Origin: a virus
DNA: 24,754 bases
Strand: one strand, 5' to 3'
IMG/VR virus record: IMGVR_UViG_3300049255_000575
Coordinates: 1-24,754 of that record
The notes under the pieces are model-generated. The model made no database searches. It had not been told where the DNA came from and was given only the letters and a program-made list of their open reading frames with translations. Position 1 is the stretch's first letter. The number at the start of each line of letters is the position of its first letter. This document shows positions 751 through 19,499 of the stretch, in pieces. The position numbers and the translations under genes are program-made.

Positions 751-1461
751 TTACTCGCCGCAATCAACGAGTACAGCGCAGTTATATACCATAATTTTTG
801 TCGCAATTGATGGAAATGCCGTGAGAAATTTTTGACGAATCCATCTTTTTGTACTTCCGACTAAATATCCGTAAAGATAACGCTCGGTTTTCATCGATAC
901 TGGATCGACAAGAATTTTGCTTACTGCCAATCCAGACGTCGACAATTTATTCAAAAACGTTTCTAAACTATAATAATTAATGTGGCCAAATTTTTTACTA
1001 ATTTTGATTGCTCTATCAATTCTCAACGTGTGCTCAAGCGGGACTTCAATAACAGCATGACGCGAAATACGAGCTATTTCGCGCAAAAACATTCTTTCGT
1101 GATCAACATGTTCAAGCACATGCATACACACTGCAATATCAAACTCTTTGTCTTTGAAAGGCAATTTATAACCATCAAATTTTACTATCTCAACACCGTG
1201 CAACTTCCTTGAAGCTATCGCGTCGACCCCCGAAGGTGAGACCTCAGCCGCAACGATACGACCGGCGCGCCCCGATTTAGAAAGTATATCTACGAGCGCG
1301 CCTTGACCTGCGCCAACATCTATCAGCGAACGAATCTCATTGATGCCCAACAACTCATCCAAATGAGACGCCTGCTCTAACGCTGACAATGCCCTCTTTA
1401 CGTTATCGGCACCATCAATATAATATTTCTCATAAAATTCTATAGTATTCGATTCATTCAT
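751..1461 (-). CDS. Class I SAM-dependent methyltransferase (Methyltransf_11-like)
   Basis: A 236-residue protein with the Rossmann-type SAM-binding signature SLIDVGAGQGAL (about residues 45-56), an acidic strand-2 end (VAAEVSP), a motif II/III region (FDIAVCMHVLEHVDHERM) and a typical following strand (ISRHAVIEVPLEH). It should transfer a methyl group from S-adenosylmethionine; the acceptor cannot be read from sequence. The GxGxG loop and HVLEH segment place it in the UbiE/Methyltransf_11 group, whose members often act on glycans, lipids or small molecules. It starts 23 bases after the tailspike stop with only a weak GAAG upstream. Its DNA is strikingly AT-rich against the surrounding GC-rich operon and matches the distal part of the tailspike gene, which points to transfer. 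Inference: it may modify host surface polysaccharide, the likely tailspike target. Confidence 0.85.
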   Translation of the reverse strand: MNESNTIEFYEKYYIDGADNVKRALSALEQASHLDELLGINEIRSLIDVGAGQGALVDILSKSGRAGRIVAAEVSPSGVDAIASRKLHGVEIVKFDGYKLPFKDKEFDIAVCMHVLEHVDHERMFLREIARISRHAVIEVPLEHTLRIDRAIKISKKFGHINYYSLETFLNKLSTSGLAVSKILVDPVSMKTERYLYGYLVGSTKRWIRQKFLTAFPSIATKIMVYNCAVLVDCGE

Positions 1462-1484: not shown

Positions 1485-3359
1485 TTAGACCGTAGCGCCA
1501 GTAGCATCAACCCAAACCGGTCCGATCGCCGCTTTACACCAAATTGGCCTCGGCGTCGCGAGGCTACCATCAAAGAACATTTGACCAATGATCGGCGCGG
1601 TCGGGCGAGATAAGCCATTGGCCGTCGATTGCAAGCGCAAACGGCCGGACGGGCTGTCCGAGCCTAGGTTGGGCACATAATTCGTCTGGGTAACGAAACT
1701 CAACATTCCGCCGGCATCCATCCACAGATGACCAAAAATTTCCGAGGCATTATTGTCGAATATCAAGTGACCGCCAGCATAGTTGGATCCGTCAGACGTA
1801 TTATTTAGCATTATGTTGTAAGCGGATCTAAGCCTTAAATCCCTAGGCGAAGCACCTATGCCAGCCTGAAAATCAATACAATTGTTTGCCGATCCCCATT
1901 GGTTACTAGAAATAAGAAATTGTGCGTTATTGCCAGATCCGATATCAAACGCGAGAATTCCGCGATTAGAGTTAGCGGTAATTCCAAGACTTATCGCGTG
2001 TGAAGATCCACCCAGTGCGGATAATGTCATTCCACTGTAATTTGTCACAACCCATTGCGAGCCTGGAACATTAACACTATCGGGAGTAAAATTATTTACG
2101 AGAATGGCATTTGGGTTTGATATCCACATAACTTGACTTGATAAAGAAACACCGTTTGCATTTGTCGTCGGCAATGATGATATTGTTATTGTTTGGGCCG
2201 ACTGACTGAATGCAGTAACTACTGCGCCTAATGGAATTCCTGATCCCTGCAAATTTTGCCCGATTATTAAACTATCCCACGTTGACGACGAAACTCCACT
2301 TATTACATTCGACGTCGATGACGTAACGCCAGTGCCACTAAAATTTACGGGACCAAACAGTTGATAGCCACCCCATATCTGCGGCGGGACGTTTACAGCG
2401 ACCCCAGAATTTGCGTTAAAAAAATACGCGGCTGCGTATATCGATTCAAATCGATTACCAAATGCTTCAAACCCCTCTAAACGACCTCCAACCGCGATTA
2501 ATGCTTGCACTGCATAAGAACTACCCTCGAAGTCATTAAAGCAAGCTACAACACCATTTGCTACTGAGATCTGACCAAAGGGGTTTGTAATTAATATGCC
2601 AGAACTCGCCAAGCCGATTGAGACGTTATTTTGAAGACTAAACTGACACTTCTGCACCCGAGTCGAGTTCGCCGCCCCGCGCAGCCGCACACCGAACGGT
2701 ATATCCCCCACATCCGAACCGCTCTCCTTGCGCACCCAGCACCGATAGATCTCCGTCCAGAAGCACCCCGTCGCCGTATTGGTCGGGTCGGTCTGGAACA
2801 GGTCGATCGCCGCATAGTCGCTCTGGACGTTGCCGGTGAACGGCACGCCATTGGCGATCACCGAGCAGTCCACCAGCGACACCGACCCGGTCCCCGACAG
2901 CCCGATCCCGCCCAGCGCCGCATTGCTCCCCGTTCCGGTCCCAGCCGCACCCCGCTGGTTGATGGTCAGGCCCATCAAGGTCTGGCGGTTCGGAACGCTG
3001 TTTCCCTGGATCAGCAGGCCATAGAGCGCGTTGGCGCCGGTCGTGATCACCGCCCCATGGGCCATGATCAGGATATTGGCGGCCGCCGGATTGGCCTCCA
3101 GGTTCAGTACCGCCTGCGAGGCGCAATAATAGGTCTTGCCCGCGGTCATCACCCCCACGCCGCCGCTCGCCGCCAGCTGGGCCAACCAGGCGTTGATCGC
3201 GGCGCTGTCGTCGGTCGCGCCATCCCCCACGGCCCCGAAATTGTCGAGCCCCCAGAACGGCGCCGATCCCTGGGCGAAGCCGAAATTGCCGTCCAGCAGG
3301 GCGATCGAGGCCGGAGACGGCGTGGTGGCGAACTTGGTCGGCATGGCCGGAGAGGTCAT
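1485..3359 (-). CDS. Tailspike with pectate-lyase-like beta-helix (depolymerase-type receptor-binding protein)
   Basis: A 624-residue protein. Near residue 40 it carries DNFGAVGDGATDDSAAINAW, the classic opening of the Pectate_lyase_3 / right-handed beta-helix of phage tailspikes. A long Ser/Asn/Gly-rich stretch with repeated short hydrophobic strands follows, as expected for a beta-helix. The last ~65 residues (from YVPNLGSDSPSGRL, with PIIGQMFFDGSLATPRPIWC, ending VWVDATGATV) resemble a C-terminal cap seen in tail proteins. Spikes of this type bind and often cleave surface polysaccharide; the substrate is unknown. ATG at 3359 is preferred because AGGA sits 8 bases upstream; ATG at 3368 has no room for a ribosome site. 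Base composition falls sharply near position 2640 (residue ~240), so the gene looks like a fusion of a resident N-terminal part with an imported distal part. Confidence 0.85.
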   Translation of the reverse strand: MTSPAMPTKFATTPSPASIALLDGNFGFAQGSAPFWGLDNFGAVGDGATDDSAAINAWLAQLAASGGVGVMTAGKTYYCASQAVLNLEANPAAANILIMAHGAVITTGANALYGLLIQGNSVPNRQTLMGLTINQRGAAGTGTGSNAALGGIGLSGTGSVSLVDCSVIANGVPFTGNVQSDYAAIDLFQTDPTNTATGCFWTEIYRCWVRKESGSDVGDIPFGVRLRGAANSTRVQKCQFSLQNNVSIGLASSGILITNPFGQISVANGVVACFNDFEGSSYAVQALIAVGGRLEGFEAFGNRFESIYAAAYFFNANSGVAVNVPPQIWGGYQLFGPVNFSGTGVTSSTSNVISGVSSSTWDSLIIGQNLQGSGIPLGAVVTAFSQSAQTITISSLPTTNANGVSLSSQVMWISNPNAILVNNFTPDSVNVPGSQWVVTNYSGMTLSALGGSSHAISLGITANSNRGILAFDIGSGNNAQFLISSNQWGSANNCIDFQAGIGASPRDLRLRSAYNIMLNNTSDGSNYAGGHLIFDNNASEIFGHLWMDAGGMLSFVTQTNYVPNLGSDSPSGRLRLQSTANGLSRPTAPIIGQMFFDGSLATPRPIWCKAAIGPVWVDATGATV

Positions 3360-3417
3360 CGAACGCATCCTGTAGAGGGAAATGGAGGCCCCAAACGCGG
3401 GGCGCGGCGGCGGCGGC

Positions 3418-4405: not shown

Positions 4406-5008
4406 TCAGCCGCCGAACAGCCCGCCCAGCGAATTGCCCAGCGCGCCAAACAGGCTCGCGGCCGAACCGCCCAGCAGATTGTCCTGCTGCGCCTGATAAC
4501 CGCCGAGCGCCTGATAGCCGTTGGCCAGCTGTGCGGCCAGTTGCGCGCCGAACTGGCCGGTCTGGGTCGCCGCGCTCTGCCCCATCCCCGCCAGGCCCAG
4601 CAATCGATTGTACTGGCTGTTCAAGGTGTTGTCGGCCAGGCCATTGGCGAAGGTCGCCGCCCCGCTCATGGCCGCGCCGGAATTGCCGAGCCCCCGCGCC
4701 GCCGCGCTGCTCTGGGTCGCCTGCAGGCCCTGGCTCAGGTCCCACTGGTAGCCCGGCAGGTTCTGCAGCGTATTGGCCAGGGTCGCGGGATTGCCGCTGG
4801 TCAGGCCCTGCAGCTGCGGCACGGCGCTCAGGCCCAGGTTCTGATAGGGCATAAGGGCCGCCTGGGTCTGGGCGTACTGGCTCTGCTCGGCGGCCATGCC
4901 CTGTTGCACGGCGTTCTGCTGGGCGGAGAGCCCGGCGAACGAGCCGGCGGTCGTCGCCGCCGTTCCCGCGGCCGACGCCGCAGCGCCGATGAGTGCTGCC
5001 GAAACCAT
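4406..5008 (-). CDS. DNA ejection (injection) protein, P22 gp7-like role
   Basis: A 200-residue Ala/Gly/Gln-rich protein without disulfide-forming residues. Residues 4-22 (ALIGAAASAAGTAATTAGS) form a small-residue helix that could insert in membranes. A Gln-rich helical segment follows, then a block LGNSGAAMSGAATFANGLAD...LNSQYNRLLGLAGMGQ. This block recurs in podoviral proteins annotated as DNA transfer/injection proteins and in tail-machine neighbours of gp10. It is expected inside the capsid or tail and to be expelled with DNA to help cross the envelope. The start is well supported by GGGAG upstream. It lies one base after the acetyltransferase stop. In P22 three such proteins (gp7, gp16, gp20) are present; here only this short one is recognisable at the canonical place. 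The family assignment rests on the motif and the position. Confidence 0.7.
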   Translation of the reverse strand: MVSAALIGAAASAAGTAATTAGSFAGLSAQQNAVQQGMAAEQSQYAQTQAALMPYQNLGLSAVPQLQGLTSGNPATLANTLQNLPGYQWDLSQGLQATQSSAAARGLGNSGAAMSGAATFANGLADNTLNSQYNRLLGLAGMGQSAATQTGQFGAQLAAQLANGYQALGGYQAQQDNLLGGSAASLFGALGNSLGGLFGG

Positions 5009-5009
5009 C

Positions 5010-5471
5010 TCAATCTCCCAACCAGAGCGAATAATAGGTCTCCACCGGTTCGAACCTCAGGAACGTGAACAGCCGTCCCGCGTCATTGTGGAGCTTGGCG
5101 CCGACGAACCACCGCTGGACCCCGCGCCGCCGCGCCTCCCGCTCCACCGCCCGAAACAGTCGGATCGCCGCCGTGGGCGAGCCGTCGCGGTGCCCGGGAT
5201 GCAGGTAGAAGATGTCCATGGTCAGGGTCAGACAGGTCCGATAGTGCAGGCCCGGCGCGATGAAGCCGACGAAATAGCCGACCAAGCCGCCGTCTTTGCG
5301 TAGGGTGACGAAAACCACCTCGCCCCGCGCATCACGCTCCAGATAGACCTCATACTGCGGATCCAGCGGAACCTTGTCCTGGTTCAACGCCAACTCTTGC
5401 CAGTGCAGCGGAAACAGGGGCTTGAGCTCGTCCAGCCGTTCGGTGAGGGATTCGACCTGGGCGGTGATCAT
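5010..5471 (-). CDS. GNAT-family N-acetyltransferase
   Basis: A 153-residue protein of GNAT size and fold order. It has central strands VVFVTLRKDGGLVGYFVGF and LTLTMDIFYLHPGHRDGS, an acetyl-CoA loop with helix (about 94-117, HRDGSPTAAIRLFRAVERE) and a final AKLHNDAGRLFTFLRFEPVETYYS segment, where the late Phe/Tyr residues are typical. It would transfer an acetyl group from acetyl-CoA to an amine; the substrate cannot be read. Its ATG overlaps the TGA of the upstream oxygenase gene by four bases (5468-5471), implying translational coupling. The DNA ejection protein follows one base after its stop. GNAT genes in this position occur in other podovirus tail modules, where the role is unproven. 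Modification of a virion or host protein is a reasonable inference. Confidence 0.8.
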   Translation of the reverse strand: MITAQVESLTERLDELKPLFPLHWQELALNQDKVPLDPQYEVYLERDARGEVVFVTLRKDGGLVGYFVGFIAPGLHYRTCLTLTMDIFYLHPGHRDGSPTAAIRLFRAVEREARRRGVQRWFVGAKLHNDAGRLFTFLRFEPVETYYSLWLGD

Positions 5472-6013
5472 GGGATGCGCACGTCCACGATCAGGTGGAT
5501 GCGGTCGTCCGCGCCATTGTTCACCACCGAATGGACCGCGTGGGCGTCGAACAGCCAGGCCTCGCCCGGCCGCATCCAGACCGCCTCCTCGCCCGCATGG
5601 AACACACAGCCCGGCGCGCTCTGCAGCACCAGGTGCAGGCGGTTGTAATAGTGGGCGTAGGCCCCCAGCACGTCGGCGTGCGGATGGATCTGCTTGCCCG
5701 GCGCCAGCCGCGTCAGCATGACCCGGCCCAGCCGCTCGCCGCCCACCCGGCGCATCAGGTCCAGCGCCAGACTACGGATCAGGAACAGAGGTCCAGCGGC
5801 GGGCTGCCAGACGCATTCCAGGTCGTCGCCCAGTTTCGCCAGGTCTCGCCCCCCATTGAAGCGGACCAAGATGTCGTCGACCTCCCGGTGCGGCGAATCC
5901 TCGACATAGGTCACCCGAAGTTCATCGGCGCCCCACAGCTCCGGATGCGCCGCCAGAGCGGCCTGCAACGGCGCGAGGTCGACTCCGTCGGCGACCCTTT
6001 GGAAATGTCTCAT
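5468..6013 (-). CDS. Aspartyl/asparaginyl beta-hydroxylase-like Fe(II)/2-oxoglutarate oxygenase
   Basis: A 181-residue protein matching the Asp/Asn beta-hydroxylase domain (double-stranded beta-helix fold). The segment APGKQIHPHADVLG supplies the first metal ligands (H110/H112 with D114). YNRLHLVLQSAPGCVFHAGEE and MRPGEAWLFDAHAVHSV follow, with H161 as the distal metal ligand. R171 in DDRIHLIVDV is suited to bind 2-oxoglutarate. The full catalytic set appears present, so the enzyme is probably active. Family members hydroxylate Asp/Asn in proteins, or small molecules; the target here is unknown. Both ends overlap neighbours by four bases: its ATG overlaps the collar-protein stop (6010-6013) and its TGA overlaps the acetyltransferase start. 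This indicates tight co-expression with tail structural genes and suggests a virion substrate, though that is inference. Confidence 0.85.
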   Translation of the reverse strand: MRHFQRVADGVDLAPLQAALAAHPELWGADELRVTYVEDSPHREVDDILVRFNGGRDLAKLGDDLECVWQPAAGPLFLIRSLALDLMRRVGGERLGRVMLTRLAPGKQIHPHADVLGAYAHYYNRLHLVLQSAPGCVFHAGEEAVWMRPGEAWLFDAHAVHSVVNNGADDRIHLIVDVRIP

Positions 6014-6699
6014 GTCTTGATGATCCAGTTGACCACCGCGAACGGCGGCAAGGTGGGCAGCGGCGTCCCGCCGCCGGTATTGGCCCCGGTCGCGGTGATC
6101 CCGGTCGAGGCGGTCTGTGTTCCGGTGATCCCGGTGAGCGCCGAACCGGTCGAGCCCGCAGCCGAACCGCCCGTCCCGCTCCCCGCCGTGACATTTGCGG
6201 CGCCGACCAGGGCCGTATGGCTGTGGCCGGGGTCGGTCACGCCGTGGCTGTGCCCGGGATCGGCGATCGGGTGGGTGTGGGCGGGCAGGTTGGCCACGCC
6301 GATGTTGAAGGTCTCAGCCCCGCCGGCCTGGCCCAGACTCCGCGGCGACAGGCCGTGCCCGGTCCCGGCCCCCAGCAGGGCGCGCCCGCGAAGGTCGGGG
6401 AGGGCGAAGGTGCTGCTCCCGTCTCCGGCGCCCCAGGTCGTCCCGATCACCCCGAACAGGCCGGCATAGGTGGTGCGACTGACGGCGGAGCCGTCGGCCA
6501 ACAGCCAGCCGTCGGCCGGCAGGGTCGGGGCGATCCACGGCTTCAGGTCGCCGGTGGCGAAACCCCCGCCGCCGGCGCCGCTGCTCCCGCCGGTTCGATT
6601 CCAAAGGTTTGTGAAGAACTGCCGCCAAGCAGTTGTAACAATGCCGGTCCCCGGATCGGTCAGGGGCGCCGTCAGGTTGGGAAAGCCCTGCCCCGCCAT
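6010..6699 (-). CDS. Tail protein with phage tail collar domain and HxH motifs
   Basis: A 229-residue protein. Residues ~54-112 (PADGWLLADGSAVSRTTYAG, then STFALPDLRGRALLGAG) are the phage tail collar domain (PF07484). Just after come HTH (141-143) and two near-identical DPGHSH blocks (147-152, 156-161), followed by a low-complexity Gly/Thr/Ala shaft and the conserved ending PPFAVVNWIIKT. In T4 short tail fibres, HxH motifs from three chains coordinate metal ions in the trimer core, and a similar arrangement is plausible here. The N terminus (TDPGTGIVTTAWRQFFTNLW) is a common start of such fibres. GGAGATGTC precedes the ATG. The position right after the gp10-like gene corresponds to the tail needle gene (gp26) of P22, so this may be the distal tip or a fibre at that place. 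Confidence 0.85.
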   Translation of the reverse strand: MAGQGFPNLTAPLTDPGTGIVTTAWRQFFTNLWNRTGGSSGAGGGGFATGDLKPWIAPTLPADGWLLADGSAVSRTTYAGLFGVIGTTWGAGDGSSTFALPDLRGRALLGAGTGHGLSPRSLGQAGGAETFNIGVANLPAHTHPIADPGHSHGVTDPGHSHTALVGAANVTAGSGTGGSAAGSTGSALTGITGTQTASTGITATGANTGGGTPLPTLPPFAVVNWIIKT

Positions 6700-6758: not shown

Positions 6759-8297
6759 TCACGACCCCGCCGGCTCCATCTCCACATAGGCGCCGTTCAG
6801 CACCGTCTCGCCGGCATAGGACCAGGACAGCTCGAACACCCGCCGCCGCCCCAGTCCCGTGCGTCGCCAGGTCGGCGTGCGCCGGTAGTCGCCGCGGAAG
6901 CCCAGATCCTGCATCACCGGTTCGCCCCAGCTGAAACCGCCGTCGTCGCTCCAGCGCAGGGACACCTTCGGCGCATCGGGCGAACTGCCGAAGAAGCTGA
7001 ACGCCGCCCCGCCCGCCTGATCGAAGGCGAACCCGCCGCCGCCGCTCCCGTCGAAAGTGAACACCACGGACGGGTCCGGCGAAGATCCCGGGTCGGTCGT
7101 CGTCCCCGTCTCCATGTCGGCGGTGAAGGCGCCATAGCTGACGCGGCGCGAATCCTCGCGCAGGTGGGGAAAGCTCTGCACCCGCTGGATCGGCGCCCCG
7201 GCGTCGGTGAAGACGGTCGGGTCGAGGGCATAGAGGACGCCCGTCTGCCAGTCCTGACAGAAGGTGCGCCCATAGGCGGCCGCGCAACTCGCGGCGCGAT
7301 GGCGGTGCAATCCGCCGGAGGGGTCGAGCCAGGCCCGCTGGTGCCACAGCCCCGTCGCCGCGTCATAGACCCAGGTCTCGTCCGCGCTGGGAAAGCTCAG
7401 GACATAGAAGACATGCCCCTGCTGCTGGTAGGTGAAGCCCACCGCGTCCGCCACGGTCGTATAGCCCGCCAAGCGGGCCTCCAGCGCATGGTTGGAAATG
7501 CGCTTGGCCTGATAGCCGGCCCCCTCAACCACCAGGGCGCGTCCCTGCCGGTCCTGGCTGACCCAGTAGATCGACAGATCCTGGCGGGCGATCGCGTACT
7601 TCGCCGCCGCCCCGTGCTCGAGATAGACCCCGGCCATGCGCTGGAACGGAAAGTCCGCCGATCCCGAATCCACCCAGACCTCGCTGGTGATCGTCCCGAT
7701 CAGCCAGGGCTCCAGGTGCTGGCAGACCACCCCCTGCAACGGGTCGGTCGAGCCGGTCTTGCCCGCGATCCATAGCGGATTGAACGCGACCCCTGGCTCC
7801 CAGTTGGAGGGCGAGACATAGAACTGGGCCGTCCCCCTCAGATCGAACAGGAAATAGGTGTCGACGAAGTCCACCCGGTCGGCGCCGGAAAAGGCCGGGT
7901 CGGCGATCTGGCCGTTCCAGCTTCGCCCGGCCAGGGTCACCGACCAGCCCTGGGCCGACCCGTCGACCACCACCAGCACCAGGCCGTTGTCGGCCATGGA
8001 CACCGGCGTCTGCAGCCCGTTGGTCAGGCTCCCCAGCGCCGTATGCGCGCCCGTCGGGTCGACATAGTAGAGCGTCGACCCCACCACGGCGTAGAGATCG
8101 CCATTGGTCGCCGTGTAGAGCCCCCGCCCCGACCCCTCCGGCGGGCTGCCGACCACGCTCAGCCCGGGCGTGGGGTAATAGCTGAACGGGAAAGGCGCAT
8201 CGTCCGGGTTCTTCTCCGGATAGAGGTTGATGCAGCGCTGGGCCTCGGCCGTCAGGCTGCGCGCCTGATAGGCGCCGGCGGTCAGGGCGACGCGCAT
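6759..8297 (-). CDS. P22 gp10-like tail hub / packaged-DNA stabilisation protein
   Basis: A 512-residue protein, close to the length of P22 gp10 (472). The N-terminal region (RCINLYPEKNPDD, YYPTPGLSVV) and the run of short repeats such as GDLYAVVGSTLYYVD and VDTYFLFDLRGTAQFYVSP fit the beta-propeller-like body of gp10 tail hub proteins. The C terminus (SLRWSDDGGFSWGEP, WRRTGLGRRRVFELSWS) matches the conserved ending WRRvGriRr..F of that family. In P22 six copies form the hub that closes the portal channel and bears spikes and needle. AAGG precedes the ATG by about 9 bases. It lies 18 bases downstream of the gp4-like gene and 59 bases upstream of the collar protein, the same order as gp4-gp10-gp26 in P22. 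Confidence 0.85.
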   Translation of the reverse strand: MRVALTAGAYQARSLTAEAQRCINLYPEKNPDDAPFPFSYYPTPGLSVVGSPPEGSGRGLYTATNGDLYAVVGSTLYYVDPTGAHTALGSLTNGLQTPVSMADNGLVLVVVDGSAQGWSVTLAGRSWNGQIADPAFSGADRVDFVDTYFLFDLRGTAQFYVSPSNWEPGVAFNPLWIAGKTGSTDPLQGVVCQHLEPWLIGTITSEVWVDSGSADFPFQRMAGVYLEHGAAAKYAIARQDLSIYWVSQDRQGRALVVEGAGYQAKRISNHALEARLAGYTTVADAVGFTYQQQGHVFYVLSFPSADETWVYDAATGLWHQRAWLDPSGGLHRHRAASCAAAYGRTFCQDWQTGVLYALDPTVFTDAGAPIQRVQSFPHLREDSRRVSYGAFTADMETGTTTDPGSSPDPSVVFTFDGSGGGGFAFDQAGGAAFSFFGSSPDAPKVSLRWSDDGGFSWGEPVMQDLGFRGDYRRTPTWRRTGLGRRRVFELSWSYAGETVLNGAYVEMEPAGS

Positions 8298-8315: not shown

Positions 8316-9032
8316 TCACCGGCCGTCGCTGAAGATGTTGTAGATGCCGCTCCCGGCGATCCCCGCCGGCATCCTCAGCCGGGGGATCTGGGTGTTGGCG
8401 ATGCGGATCACCGCGAGCGCGTCCTTGGCCAGGCCCACCGCCACCGGATCGGCCGGCATCTGGTAGGCCGAGCGCAGCCGCACCGCCAGGTTCCACTGCA
8501 GCGCCGCCAGATACTCCGGCGGCAGGGTCACCGCCGTGGCCGGAACCGCGAAGCTCGCCAGCGTGTCCTTGGTCACCAGATGCAGCTCGAACAGGGCCGC
8601 CTGCGGGATGGGGTGCGGATAGACCACGCCCAGCGGAATGGCCGAGTCATAGAAGATCGTCTCCGGCCAGGTGGTCAGCGACTTCAGCCGGATGCGGCTG
8701 TAATCCTCGCGCGAGGCCAGCACGGTCAGCGGATAGTCCACCAGGTTGGGCGCGCCCGAGATCAGCTGGCGCACATAGGCCGCCTCCAGCCGGTCGGGCC
8801 GGGGGATGTCGAAGTCCCCGCCCGCCCCGACCGTATAGGACGCCGCGCCCGTCGAAGTCAGCGGCGTGTCGATCAAGTGATAGACCAGCCAGCGCTTGCG
8901 GTTCCATTGCCCGATCATCTGGTTCAGATGGGTCAGGGCGTCGTTGACGTCCTCGGGCATGGCCGCCTGGCCCACGCCCAGCACGCCCGCGATCTTCAGC
9001 GCCTGGGCGATCAGGTCGGCGGCGGTTGTCAT
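8316..9032 (-). CDS. P22 gp4-like tail accessory / head-completion adaptor
   Basis: A 238-residue protein. The N-terminal helical part (DLIAQALKIAGVLGVGQAAM, DALTHLNQMIGQWNRKRW) matches the start of gp4-type adaptors, which bind below the portal ring. The C-terminal part (PPEYLAALQWNLAVRLRSAY, GLAKDALAVIRIAN) is the second conserved helical block, where the family has VxxLAxxIAP-like helices. It is longer than P22 gp4 (166) because of a central beta-rich insertion of ~90 residues (TPLTSTGAASYTVGAG to FELHLVTKD), common in environmental podoviruses. GGAGG lies 9 bases before the ATG. Position between coat and gp10-like genes agrees with this assignment. Confidence 0.8.
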   Translation of the reverse strand: MTTAADLIAQALKIAGVLGVGQAAMPEDVNDALTHLNQMIGQWNRKRWLVYHLIDTPLTSTGAASYTVGAGGDFDIPRPDRLEAAYVRQLISGAPNLVDYPLTVLASREDYSRIRLKSLTTWPETIFYDSAIPLGVVYPHPIPQAALFELHLVTKDTLASFAVPATAVTLPPEYLAALQWNLAVRLRSAYQMPADPVAVGLAKDALAVIRIANTQIPRLRMPAGIAGSGIYNIFSDGR

Positions 9033-11375: not shown

Positions 11376-11729
11376 CTAACCCTCGGGCGGACGACCGATG
11401 ACTTCGAGCTGCGTAAGCAATTCCGGAAGCGCGGTCCTGACCGTCTCCCAGACCGTATCGAGGTCAATTTCGAAATAGCCGTGGGCGATGCGGTTGCGCA
11501 TGCCCCTCATGCTTCGCCAAGGAATTTCGTTGTGCGCGATGGCGAAAGTAGAATGCGCCTCCATGATCTTGGTGGACGCTTCCCCGATAATAACCAGGCT
11601 CATGATCACCGCCTGCTGTGTTCGCTTGTCGGAACGAAAATCCTGCAGGCTCAATCCTTCGACAAATCCGCAAGCGTCAACTGCCGCCTCCCGGATATGA
11701 CCGAGATAGTCGGCAAGCCTTAACGTCAT
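11376..11729 (-). CDS. hepT: HepT-like HEPN toxin (RNase) of a HepT/MntA system
   Basis: A 117-residue all-helical protein of the HepT (DUF86) family. The C-terminal active-site segment MRGMRNRIAHGYFEID carries R78-x4-H83-x-Y85, the RX4HXY signature of HepT. In this family Arg and His form the RNase site and the Tyr is the residue AMPylated by the antitoxin. The opening MTLRLADYLGHIREAAVDA and IIGEASTKI are also typical. The ATG overlaps the stop of the mntA gene by four bases (11726-11729), giving the usual antitoxin-then-toxin coupled order. Known members cleave RNA to stop growth in plasmid or phage maintenance. GC content is lower than in the capsid genes on either side, indicating an inserted module. 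Catalytic residues are intact, so it is likely functional. Confidence 0.88.
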   Translation of the reverse strand: MTLRLADYLGHIREAAVDACGFVEGLSLQDFRSDKRTQQAVIMSLVIIGEASTKIMEAHSTFAIAHNEIPWRSMRGMRNRIAHGYFEIDLDTVWETVRTALPELLTQLEVIGRPPEG

Positions 11730-12016
11730 ATCGGCTTAGCTTCGGCGAGAACGCGGTCCCGAAATTTGAGGGGCAGGTCGCCGGGGGTCAGGAGATCGAC
11801 CCTAACCCCGAGAATCGCCTCGAGCTCGGAATGAAGGCGGCCAAGGTCGAACAAGGTCGCACCGGGCCGGGTGTCGACCAGCAGATCGAGATCGCTACCG
11901 TCCTTATCGCAGCCATGGAGAACCGAGCCGAAGACGCGTGGATTGAACGTGCGGTGACGTTCGGCCGCTTCCCGAACCGCGAGCTTGTTCCTGTCCAGGG
12001 CAATGGAGGGTTTCAT
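11726..12016 (-). CDS. mntA: MntA-like minimal nucleotidyltransferase antitoxin
   Basis: A 96-residue minimal nucleotidyltransferase. Residues 30-44 (GSVLHGCDKDGSDLD) give the exact GSx10DxD motif with S31 and acidic residues D42 and D44; D74 in VRVDLL is the expected third metal ligand. In the HepT/MntA system this enzyme adds AMP units to the Tyr of HepT and so neutralises it. The start at 12016 gives a protein of standard length. The ribosome binding site is weak, but a 14-base palindrome lies directly upstream (12021-12034) and could be an operator. The stop overlaps the hepT start. The pair reads in the same direction as the head genes, so read-through from the late promoter is possible. 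Confidence 0.88.
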   Translation of the reverse strand: MKPSIALDRNKLAVREAAERHRTFNPRVFGSVLHGCDKDGSDLDLLVDTRPGATLFDLGRLHSELEAILGVRVDLLTPGDLPLKFRDRVLAEAKPI

Positions 12017-12020
12017 GCTA

Positions 12021-12034
12021 CGGTATTCATACCG
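12021..12034. promoter_or_regulatory. 14-base palindrome upstream of mntA, possible operator
   Basis: CGGTAT-TC-ATACCG is a perfect 6-base inverted repeat with a 2-base centre, ending 4 bases from the mntA start codon. It lies in the 138-base divergent gap between mntA and the plus-strand small gene at 12155. On the minus strand it contains TATGAAT, which could serve as a -10 element for a nearly leaderless mntA message, but no good -35 is present. A compact symmetric site here suits autoregulation of the toxin-antitoxin operon. This is inference from position and symmetry only. Confidence 0.3.
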
Positions 12035-12154
12035 CAAACTTGGATAATCTCCCAGCCGACCAAGGCCTAGGTGATGTCTGAGTTTGAATTTGATGGCCGA
12101 ACCTGTCGCGCGTCGGCCCCAACCGCATATGATGCCGAACAAAAAGGAGGCGGC

Positions 12155-18512: not shown

Positions 18513-18935
18513 CTATATCTCGCCCTTGAGCATGTCCTTGATCGTCAGCACACGATCGTAGGTCTGCCGCAAAAGACAGTCCTGCCGGATAACGTTCGCC
18601 AAGGTGCCGCCAGCCTCGCCCGAAGCCTCCGCCTCGCACTGTGCGTCGCGGAACGTCACCCAGGCCCGCTCCGCCGCAACCAGTATGGACTTGCGGTTCG
18701 GATCGAGCTTGGCCGTGAGCTGTCGATAGACGAGGTTGAGCGCCTTGTCCTGGCGTTCGCGCTCCTCGCCGGCGCAATGGGCCATCTCGAAATCGACCGA
18801 ATTGGCCTTGGCCAGACAGGCTTGATAGGCGTCGGAATAGGTCGGCTCCGCCGCCTCTTTCGCATTGACGCTTTCGCCGGCCACGACTAGGCCGGCCAAC
18901 GCGATCAAACCCATCCACACGGCGCGCGTATTCAT
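18513..18935 (-). CDS. LprI/DUF1311-family exported protein (lysozyme-inhibitor-like), copy 2
   Basis: A 140-residue protein. Residues 1-25 form a signal peptide: NTR, a hydrophobic core (MGLIALAGLVVAG) and VNA|KE. The mature part has the LprI (DUF1311) pattern: YSDAYQACLAKA, an ERQDKALNLVYRQL helix, LVAAERAWVTFRDAQCEAE and late cysteine DCLLRQTYDR. Four cysteines are placed to form two disulfides in the periplasm. The founding member, mycobacterial LprI, inhibits lysozyme, which motivates the functional guess. It is clearly paralogous to the gene at 19083-19499 (shared QDxALNLxY, LVAAERAW, FRD, CExE). Both follow a putative peptidoglycan hydrolase, so an immunity role is inferred. The start at 18935 is chosen to give a proper signal peptide; ATG at 18962 is an alternative. 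Confidence 0.8.
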   Translation of the reverse strand: MNTRAVWMGLIALAGLVVAGESVNAKEAAEPTYSDAYQACLAKANSVDFEMAHCAGEERERQDKALNLVYRQLTAKLDPNRKSILVAAERAWVTFRDAQCEAEASGEAGGTLANVIRQDCLLRQTYDRVLTIKDMLKGEI

Positions 18936-19082
18936 CTCTCCAACCCGTCTCCGCAAGCCCATGACACCACCGCTCCGATTGCGCTCCGGCGTTAACTTTC
19001 CAAGCCCGCGCCGATCACAGGAGGCCAAATTTCTCAGTAAAGCGAAATAACACTCACCTGCTGAAATCGCATATCACCCACC

Positions 19083-19499
19083 CTACGGCTCAATATTCAA
19101 CAATCTCTGCAAGGTCTGCAATCGATTATAGGTCGTACGCATCACACATCTGCCCTTGGCGACGCGAGACACAGCCCTGTCTTGTGATGCGGATTCCATT
19201 TCACACTCGACGTCGCGGAATGCGATCCAAGCCCGCTCCGCGGCGACGAGCTTAGTTTTGCGCCCGGGCTCGTACTTGGCCATCAAAGCCTGATAGGCCA
19301 AGTTGAGCGCCCGGTCCTGGCGCTCGGATTCCTGGACGGCGCAATCGACCAGGGCGGGTCCGTCGGATCCCGCTGCGTCGTCGCAGGCCTGAAACGCGCG
19401 GGAATAGTTGGGTTCTTCGGTCTCCTCCGCGCCGGAGACGCCACTCGCCGCCGCAGCGATGCCGACGCACGCCAGCACACCGATCAACCAGGCCCTCAT
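19083..19499 (-). CDS. LprI/DUF1311-family exported protein (lysozyme-inhibitor-like), copy 1
   Basis: A 138-residue protein with a clear signal peptide (RAW, then LIGVLACVGIAAAASGVSG, cleavage near SGA|EE). The mature domain follows DUF1311: YSRAFQACDDAAG, DCAVQESERQDRALNLAYQA, KTKLVAAERAWIAFRDVECE and GRCVMRTTYNRLQTL. Cysteines pair as in copy 2. The gene lies 123 bases downstream of the hydrolase-domain effector (stop 19623) and 147 bases upstream of copy 2, on the same strand. GGGA is 8 bases before the ATG. Toxin followed by tandem periplasmic inhibitor genes is the usual order of effector/immunity modules. Known: the family includes a lysozyme inhibitor. Inferred: it protects the host cell wall from the neighbouring enzyme or from rival phages' lysins. 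Confidence 0.82.
   Translation of the reverse strand: MRAWLIGVLACVGIAAAASGVSGAEETEEPNYSRAFQACDDAAGSDGPALVDCAVQESERQDRALNLAYQALMAKYEPGRKTKLVAAERAWIAFRDVECEMESASQDRAVSRVAKGRCVMRTTYNRLQTLQRLLNIEP

Follow-up and report, generated by a model that had tools for sequence, protein, structure and literature searches.

Residue 2 of a podovirus ejection protein and the enzymes encoded upstream: an AspH-like oxygenase and a GNAT-fold protein in a P22-like virion module

The DNA analysed here (the window, a virus record of 24,754 bases, IMGVR_UViG_3300049255_000575) carries, on the minus strand like every gene under discussion, an oxygenase gene of the aspartyl/asparaginyl beta-hydroxylase (AspH) type, a gene for a GNAT-fold protein and, directly downstream, the gene for the first ejection protein, the counterpart of P22 gp7 and T7 gp14. 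Comparison of related loci gave a new finding, as read from their sequences: residue 2 of the ejection protein matches the enzyme set encoded beside it, being mostly valine with AspH and GNAT, proline with AspH in the absence of GNAT, and serine, alanine or threonine with a cupin alone. On the best reading of this match, the enzymes at least handle the N-terminus of the ejection protein; its chemical modification by them would be the best explanation of the pattern, and is held with confidence somewhat short of even. Since P22-type portal, coat, adaptor and head-closure genes are present, the window is identified, from its gene content, as a fragment of a P22-like podovirus or prophage.

Conserved partners and residue 2 of the ejection protein

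The first-pass annotation had described three open reading frames joined by two four-base overlaps, and this layout was confirmed (window coordinates, minus strand throughout). One ATGA stop/start overlap, at 6010..6013, joins the collar-domain tail protein (6010..6699; Collar, PF07484, E 2.6e-18) to the AspH-like 2-oxoglutarate- and Fe(II)-dependent (2OG-Fe(II)) oxygenase of 181 residues (5468..6013; Asp_Arg_Hydrox, PF05118, E 3.1e-19); the other, at 5468..5471, joins the oxygenase to the GNAT-fold protein of 153 residues (5010..5471; phrog_1249 acetyltransferase, E 4.3e-8, and predicted fold). The gene for the first ejection protein, a member of the P22 gp7 family with 200 residues (4406..5008; phrog_598 DNA ejection, E 2.2e-28), starts one base past the GNAT stop and has a good ribosome site. 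Compact phage modules often have four-base overlaps, so single ones say little, and what counts is the recurrence of the AspH-GNAT junction: in 87 loci with both genes (a count that is not dereplicated), the spacing is -4 in 49, -7 in 16, -1 in 8 and another value in 14. On this comparison of sequences, the junction is not due to chance.

The survey of oxygenase-GNAT adjacency that had been proposed bears the pairing out, as AspH adjoins GNAT in 68 of 70 viral GNAT loci and in all 17 bacterial-genome loci (records of Achromobacter, Sphingobium, Sphingopyxis, Sphingomonas, Massilia, Janthinobacterium, Acinetobacter, Paraburkholderia and Cupriavidus, with some metagenome-assembled genomes), the loci having been collected via GNAT similarity and thus being biased to close relatives. 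Isolates with the pair include Pseudomonas phage PfAn1, whose laboratory host is P. fluorescens, and Limnohabitans phage DC33; among 50,697 phage records, tblastn turned up relatives of AspH in 5 and of GNAT in 16. A phrog_598-type ejection gene lies directly 3' of GNAT in 78 of the 85 testable loci, the window included (7 further loci were too short), and in three of the seven exceptions (L018, DC33 and the Vibrio phage L130) a different small alanine-rich protein follows GNAT. A collar-type gene adjoins AspH in only 7 of 65 AspH+GNAT loci, and the collar was therefore rejected as a general partner. The joint unit that had been drawn from collar and enzymes thus holds for the two enzymes, which on synteny are a conserved and probably co-translated pair in the virion module, but not for the collar. 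Similarly, of the two virion targets named earlier, the ejection protein stands as the conserved neighbour, while the collar does not. The enzymes are very probably tied to the ejection protein, and this linked partner, together with the residue-2 pattern, goes beyond the first-pass annotation.

In the Sphingomonas and Sphingobium prophages L142 and L144, the AspH-GNAT pair was displaced as one block and no longer adjoins the ejection gene, whose start remains MVAAA. Median dN/dS in pairs 75-95% alike was 0.13 for AspH (55 pairs), 0.10 for GNAT (35), 0.09 for the ejection protein (78) and 0.12 for the cupin (74). AspH homologues were searched for with single AspH proteins as queries; the Itty13 AspH, located outside a virion module, was set aside.

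For the analysis of residue 2, ejection starts were chosen by ribosome-site score and the loci were sorted by their upstream enzymes. Dereplication by the last 80 residues left 170 loci, of which 168 gave a start and 165 entered the tree. In the window, the N-terminal codons (4994..5008) read M-V-S-A-A, the Val-2 class. Across the set, Val-2 was found in 63 of the 70 AspH+GNAT loci and Ser/Ala/Thr-2 in 38 of the 40 cupin-only loci; loci with AspH and without GNAT, a class defined at the locus and including many contigs that are fragments, have Pro-2 in 31 of 33 cases, cupin present or absent (19 of 19 with cupin, counted before hand corrections). The remaining classes are GNAT only (4 loci, 0 Val, 0 Pro), DUF2824 (5, Pro in 2), no recognised gene (15, Val in 2, Pro in 1) and a single short locus. 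Hand correction moved the starts of L060, L062, L074 and L088 to an upstream MVAAA, assigned L015 to AspH+cupin, and assigned L162 and L164 to AspH+GNAT since the pair lies elsewhere in those genomes (as L142 and L144); without these corrections the counts are Val 57/68, Pro 30/32 and Ser/Ala/Thr 38/41.

Four of the seven AspH+GNAT exceptions (L079, L080, L081 and L145) carry VAAA or VA behind a leader, VAAA being joined directly to it in L079, L080 and L145. This extra leader spans about 12-28 residues, and was also seen in L084 and L089 in one start calling; such variants recall P22 gp7, which loses a 20-residue leader according to its record note. Certain residues at position 2 usually permit removal of the start methionine, and one of these stands there in 157 of the 168 loci.

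Enzyme set and residue 2 of the ejection protein share 1.42 bits of mutual information (143 loci), where shuffles reach at most 0.25. The same measure for the next gene is 0.23 bits (121 loci), inside the shuffle range (up to 0.26), so that no link is seen there, while the ejection protein on those 121 loci again gives 1.42. In the Val-2 set, residues 2-5 are conserved at 90-100% against a protein mean of 47%, Val-2 itself being the selection criterion for the set; with AspH and no GNAT, Pro-2 stands at 94% against a mean of 43%. The codons are mixed while the residue is kept, Val-2 being written by four codons (23/18/18/4) and Pro-2 likewise (11/9/8/3). Furthermore, independent pairs were compared on the supported branches of a quick tree of the ejection core (minus the first 20 residues), in five related and uncorrected tests. 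For AspH+GNAT against Val, a mean of 6.1 of 8 pairs changed in the same direction and 0.1 in the opposite one (median p 0.031), and for AspH against Pro/Val 5.9 and 0.1 of 7 (median p 0.031). The corresponding figures are 3.3 and 0 of 5 for GNAT against Val among AspH loci, 3.7 and 0 of 5 for AspH without GNAT against Pro, and 4.7 and 0.0 of 5 for cupin-only against Ser/Ala/Thr. These tree-aware tests agree in direction, and the support that they lend is weak. Outside phrog_598, AspH without GNAT is again met with M-P (L132 and L024), and T7-type gp14 proteins start with M-C in 4 of 6 cases.

The two enzyme folds and the other tenants of the slot

The PF05118 score of the oxygenase (69.8 bits) is three times the Pfam cut-off of 22.6. 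The iron ligands H112 (5678..5680), D114 (5672..5674) and H161 (5531..5533) are invariant in 65 of 65 aligned rows, as are G150 and N165 among these relatives; R171 (5501..5503), which is at least 90% conserved and aligns with an Arg of the L-proline cis-4-hydroxylase 4p7w, is presumably the 2-oxoglutarate contact. The AF2 model (pLDDT 96.3) has the double-stranded beta-helix fold and superposes on 4p7w with Z 15.5 (root-mean-square deviation 2.4, 163 residues aligned), the HxD...H ligands and the C-terminal Arg being present and aligned. On these conserved residues, the protein is very likely an active 2OG-Fe(II) enzyme. Position 125 is Arg in every GNAT-linked row (60 of 60); among the 17 rows with the ejection gene and without GNAT it is Lys in 16, the remaining row being the window protein, which had been placed in every group.

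By profile, Foldseek and VIA-align alike, 4p7w is the nearest solved structure. It and proline 3-hydroxylase (1e5r) are the best profile matches (E 1.8e-10 and 9.8e-8), and 1e5r shares the fold (Z 15.2) with the same HxD...H and Arg aligned; both act on free proline, with chains of 292 and 290 residues against 181 in the phage protein. Proline 3-hydroxylase, a nucleoside-antibiotic hydroxylase and human AspH follow as structural matches, Z values between 15.5 and about 14.5 counting as tied. Human AspH (5jqy and 5apa, Z 14.1 and 14.0) has Pfam family and fold in common with the phage oxygenase. Human-type AspH, which hydroxylates EGF domains, has an iron site without the Asp ligand, and 5apa aligns a Gly where the phage family keeps D114 in all rows. 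The phage protein further differs in lacking a TPR domain, in being a single domain of 181 residues and in its place in a phage late operon; D114 and the single domain set it outside the human type. By sequence and model, its likeness to proline hydroxylases is no less than that to human AspH. The beta-hydroxylase-like identity given earlier is accordingly sound for the PF05118 family, while the name 'Asp beta-hydroxylase' is open to doubt, the closest relatives of solved structure being proline hydroxylases; 'Asp/Asn hydroxylase' is best taken as a family label that says nothing firm on activity. That Pro-2 occurs with an enzyme resembling proline hydroxylases is no more than suggestive.

The GNAT-fold protein scores 17.4 with the Pfam model Acetyltransf_1 (cut-off 20.7), as does that of L125, and its relatives in L059 and L117 reach 35.9 and 24.2. 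Its predicted structure (pLDDT 94.0) is a GNAT fold (1vkc, Z 15.8, root-mean-square deviation 2.3, 142 aligned), and BFVD holds phage GNATs that are structurally close to it. Residues invariant in 50 rows include H23, Y43, R58, H76, Y77, D86 and K126. The CoA loop of GNATs has the motif Q/R-x-x-G-x-G/A. In this family 58 of 60 rows retain its Arg, and the usual motif is absent as a general feature of the 61 rows compared, a loose form of it fitting only 26; the loop of the window protein is longer than usual, and a few others share part of this longer loop. As the CoA loop is atypical, the label 'GNAT fold' is preferred to 'proven acetyltransferase', and acetyl transfer is plausible from the fold. 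The claim that both enzymes keep catalytic residues therefore holds for the oxygenase and partly for GNAT.

Across related phages, the slot before the ejection gene holds AspH+GNAT, AspH+cupin, cupin alone, GNAT alone, P22 gp14 or T7 gp13. A survey seeded from two cupin-type ejection proteins, in which three genes upstream were read in 59 dereplicated loci, found cupin in 38, no recognised gene in 12, GNAT in 3, DUF2824 in 2, one each of AspH+GNAT, AspH+cupin and AspH, and one locus that was too short; AspH is therefore rare in that sample and a small enzyme-fold gene common (46/58). Genes in which a cupin and an AspH domain are fused were also seen (L026-L058; for example, a phage protein of 294 residues at L026:4659-5543).

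P22 gp14 (DUF2824, head morphogenesis) lies directly before gp7, as the window GNAT lies before its ejection gene, and T7 gp13 (PF11090), similar in size to the window GNAT, lies directly before gp14. The window GNAT has no PF11090 hit and an hhalign probability of 0.1% with T7 gp13, and no match to the P22 gp14 profile (0.5%). Against the PDB, the T7 gp13 profile hit kelch-type designs and other chains, none of them a GNAT, and P22 gp14 alone likewise gave no GNAT match there, with one non-GNAT hit. A profile built from six of the slot relatives of P22 gp14 does match PDB GNATs, the best being 3wr7 (E 7.6e-6), together with the ribosomal-protein alanine acetyltransferase 3igr (E 7.5e-5), and some of these relatives match DUF2824 weakly; the profile hints at a GNAT fold in P22 gp14. 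The DUF2824-like slot family concerned comprises P22 gp14 (L177:8911-9366) and its slot relatives L319, L349, L167, L168 and L174.

Readings of the residue-2 pattern

If the enzymes modify the ejection protein, the AspH-GNAT pair would serve the product of the gene downstream on the same strand. The host would strip the start methionine and expose a small N-terminal residue (Val in the window), GNAT would acylate, most simply acetylate, this end, and the oxygenase would hydroxylate a residue at or near it. In the GNAT-less sister phages, the oxygenase would meet an N-terminal Pro, often with a cupin beside it. In podoviruses, the ejection proteins form an envelope-spanning channel, and the modified end might tune the holding of the hydrophobic N-terminal segment during assembly, or envelope insertion after ejection. 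A wider generalisation, possible and rather doubtful, is that short-tailed phages have an N-terminal modification code for the first ejection protein, in which interchangeable slot modules (AspH+GNAT, AspH+cupin or cupin alone) with a matching residue 2 (Val, Pro or Ser/Ala/Thr) would hydroxylate and/or acylate the exposed end before packaging and injection; T7 gp13 and P22 gp14 would then be old members with lost or changed chemistry.

Several points weigh against modification. Any modification, its site and purpose, methionine removal and co-translation are all inferred, and the CoA loop of GNAT departs from the usual motif as described above. T7 gp13, in the same slot, is classed as a probable scaffold. 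The cupin-AspH fusions (24 distinct proteins) have no phrog_598-type gene in any locus, and in the two loci that were read the next gene is a tail fibre gene (L026) or one like it (L040); the ejection link does not hold for this group. Val-2 is missing in two AspH+GNAT phages whose ejection proteins are of other kinds (DC33, M-G-V; L018, M-A-V), and L322 has AspH with an M-I-I start. Apart from these cases, the number of pairs is small in every pair test (three of the five are unable to reach p 0.05), and residue 2 adjoins the enzyme gene, so that an older co-transfer may lie behind the match.

This last point leads to the reading in which the enzyme genes and the first ejection codons are inherited or swapped jointly and residue 2 marks lineage rather than substrate. 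The adjoining position and the small number of independent pairs speak for it, and the prophages with the displaced pair (L142/L162 and L144/L164) keep MVAAA, as ancestry alone predicts. Nevertheless, synonymous codons vary while residues 2-5 of the Val-2 set are held far above the protein mean, and M-P recurs with AspH in different ejection families; joint inheritance as the whole explanation is thus judged quite improbable. It is unlikely, to a slightly lesser degree, that the two enzymes share only a late operon with the ejection gene and act on another virion protein, a host factor or a small molecule. The nearest solved oxygenases do use free proline, the fold neighbours of GNAT include aminoglycoside and polyamine acetyltransferases, and such genes have been published as metabolic, namely the DC33 AspH (PMC12195039) and an RCA-phage GNAT (PMC6918029), in the passages covered. 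However, the ejection gene stays while neighbouring genes, hosts and phage types change, and the enzyme set is tracked by residue 2 of the ejection protein, not by that of the next protein.

A role as assembly chaperones is given an equally low probability. Here the proteins of GNAT fold and of AspH/cupin fold would bind the N-terminus of the ejection protein and bring it to the procapsid while catalysing little or nothing, a part that T7 gp13 and P22 gp14 are suspected to play. This reading draws on the slot position of gp13 ('probable scaffold') and of gp14 (head morphogenesis), on the degenerate CoA loop, and on the likening of such a GNAT to T7 gp13 in passages of a Roseobacter-phage paper (PMC6775973). 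On the other side, the oxygenase keeps all of its iron ligands in very different phages, which a pure binder need not do, and the window GNAT has no sequence match to either T7 gp13 or P22 gp14.

In the parts of the literature that were covered, GNAT pc40 of cobaviruses and roseophage SIO1 is said to adjoin internal virion proteins and possibly to correspond to T7 gp13 (PMC6775973), and the GNAT ORF39 of vB_PaeM-G11 lies between gp12 and gp14, i.e., in the gp13 slot (PMC10142737); the passages covered describe no AspH or cupin neighbour for pc40 or ORF39, and residue 2 is not a subject of these papers. The AspH of DC33 (ORF8) has been read as a metabolic gene (PMC12195039). Here it is seen directly before GNAT, and the passages covered of that paper describe neither the pair nor the ejection link. 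The GenBank taxonomy of DC33 (L129), a tailed-phage-like genome of 39 kb, is Inoviridae and looks mislabelled. Further sources were covered in part (PMC11288001, PMC8954989, PMC8234382 and PMC4517105). Within this open-access literature (titles, abstract openings and passages, with few subscription papers), neither an AspH-GNAT pair beside ejection genes nor the residue-2 pattern is described, and nothing was found on post-translational modification or on the cupin side of this system.

Should N-terminal modification hold, a virion protein would be hydroxylated and acylated by phage-coded enzymes, which is rare, and genes that now pass for auxiliary metabolic ones would be reclassified. The family records consulted give no clear molecular role for T7 gene 13 and P22 gene 14, and slot enzymes that finish the ejection N-terminus would offer a testable job for genes of these types. 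The residue-2 pattern itself is a direct prediction for mass spectrometry.

Other genes in the window

Upstream of the collar gene, a gene for the head closure protein Hc3 (P22 gp10-like; 6759..8297, minus strand; phrog_578, E 9.2e-95) marks the upstream module boundary, and is followed in window coordinates by one for a head-tail adaptor (P22 gp4-like; 8316..9032, minus strand; phrog_637, E 4.6e-12). Within the head module and adjoining the coat gene, a HepT/MNT-type toxin-antitoxin pair occupies 11376-12142 (minus strand), and consists of a HepT-like ribonuclease gene (PF01934, 1.5e-26) and a nucleotidyltransferase gene (PF01909, 2e-7) with a four-base overlap. Two LprI-type lysozyme inhibitor genes stand in tandem at 18513-19028 and 19083-19499 (minus strand; PF07007, 4.6e-20 and 8.1e-17). 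A SAM methyltransferase gene (751-1461, minus strand; PF08241, 2.6e-16) directly follows the open reading frame of a putative tail spike (1485-3368).

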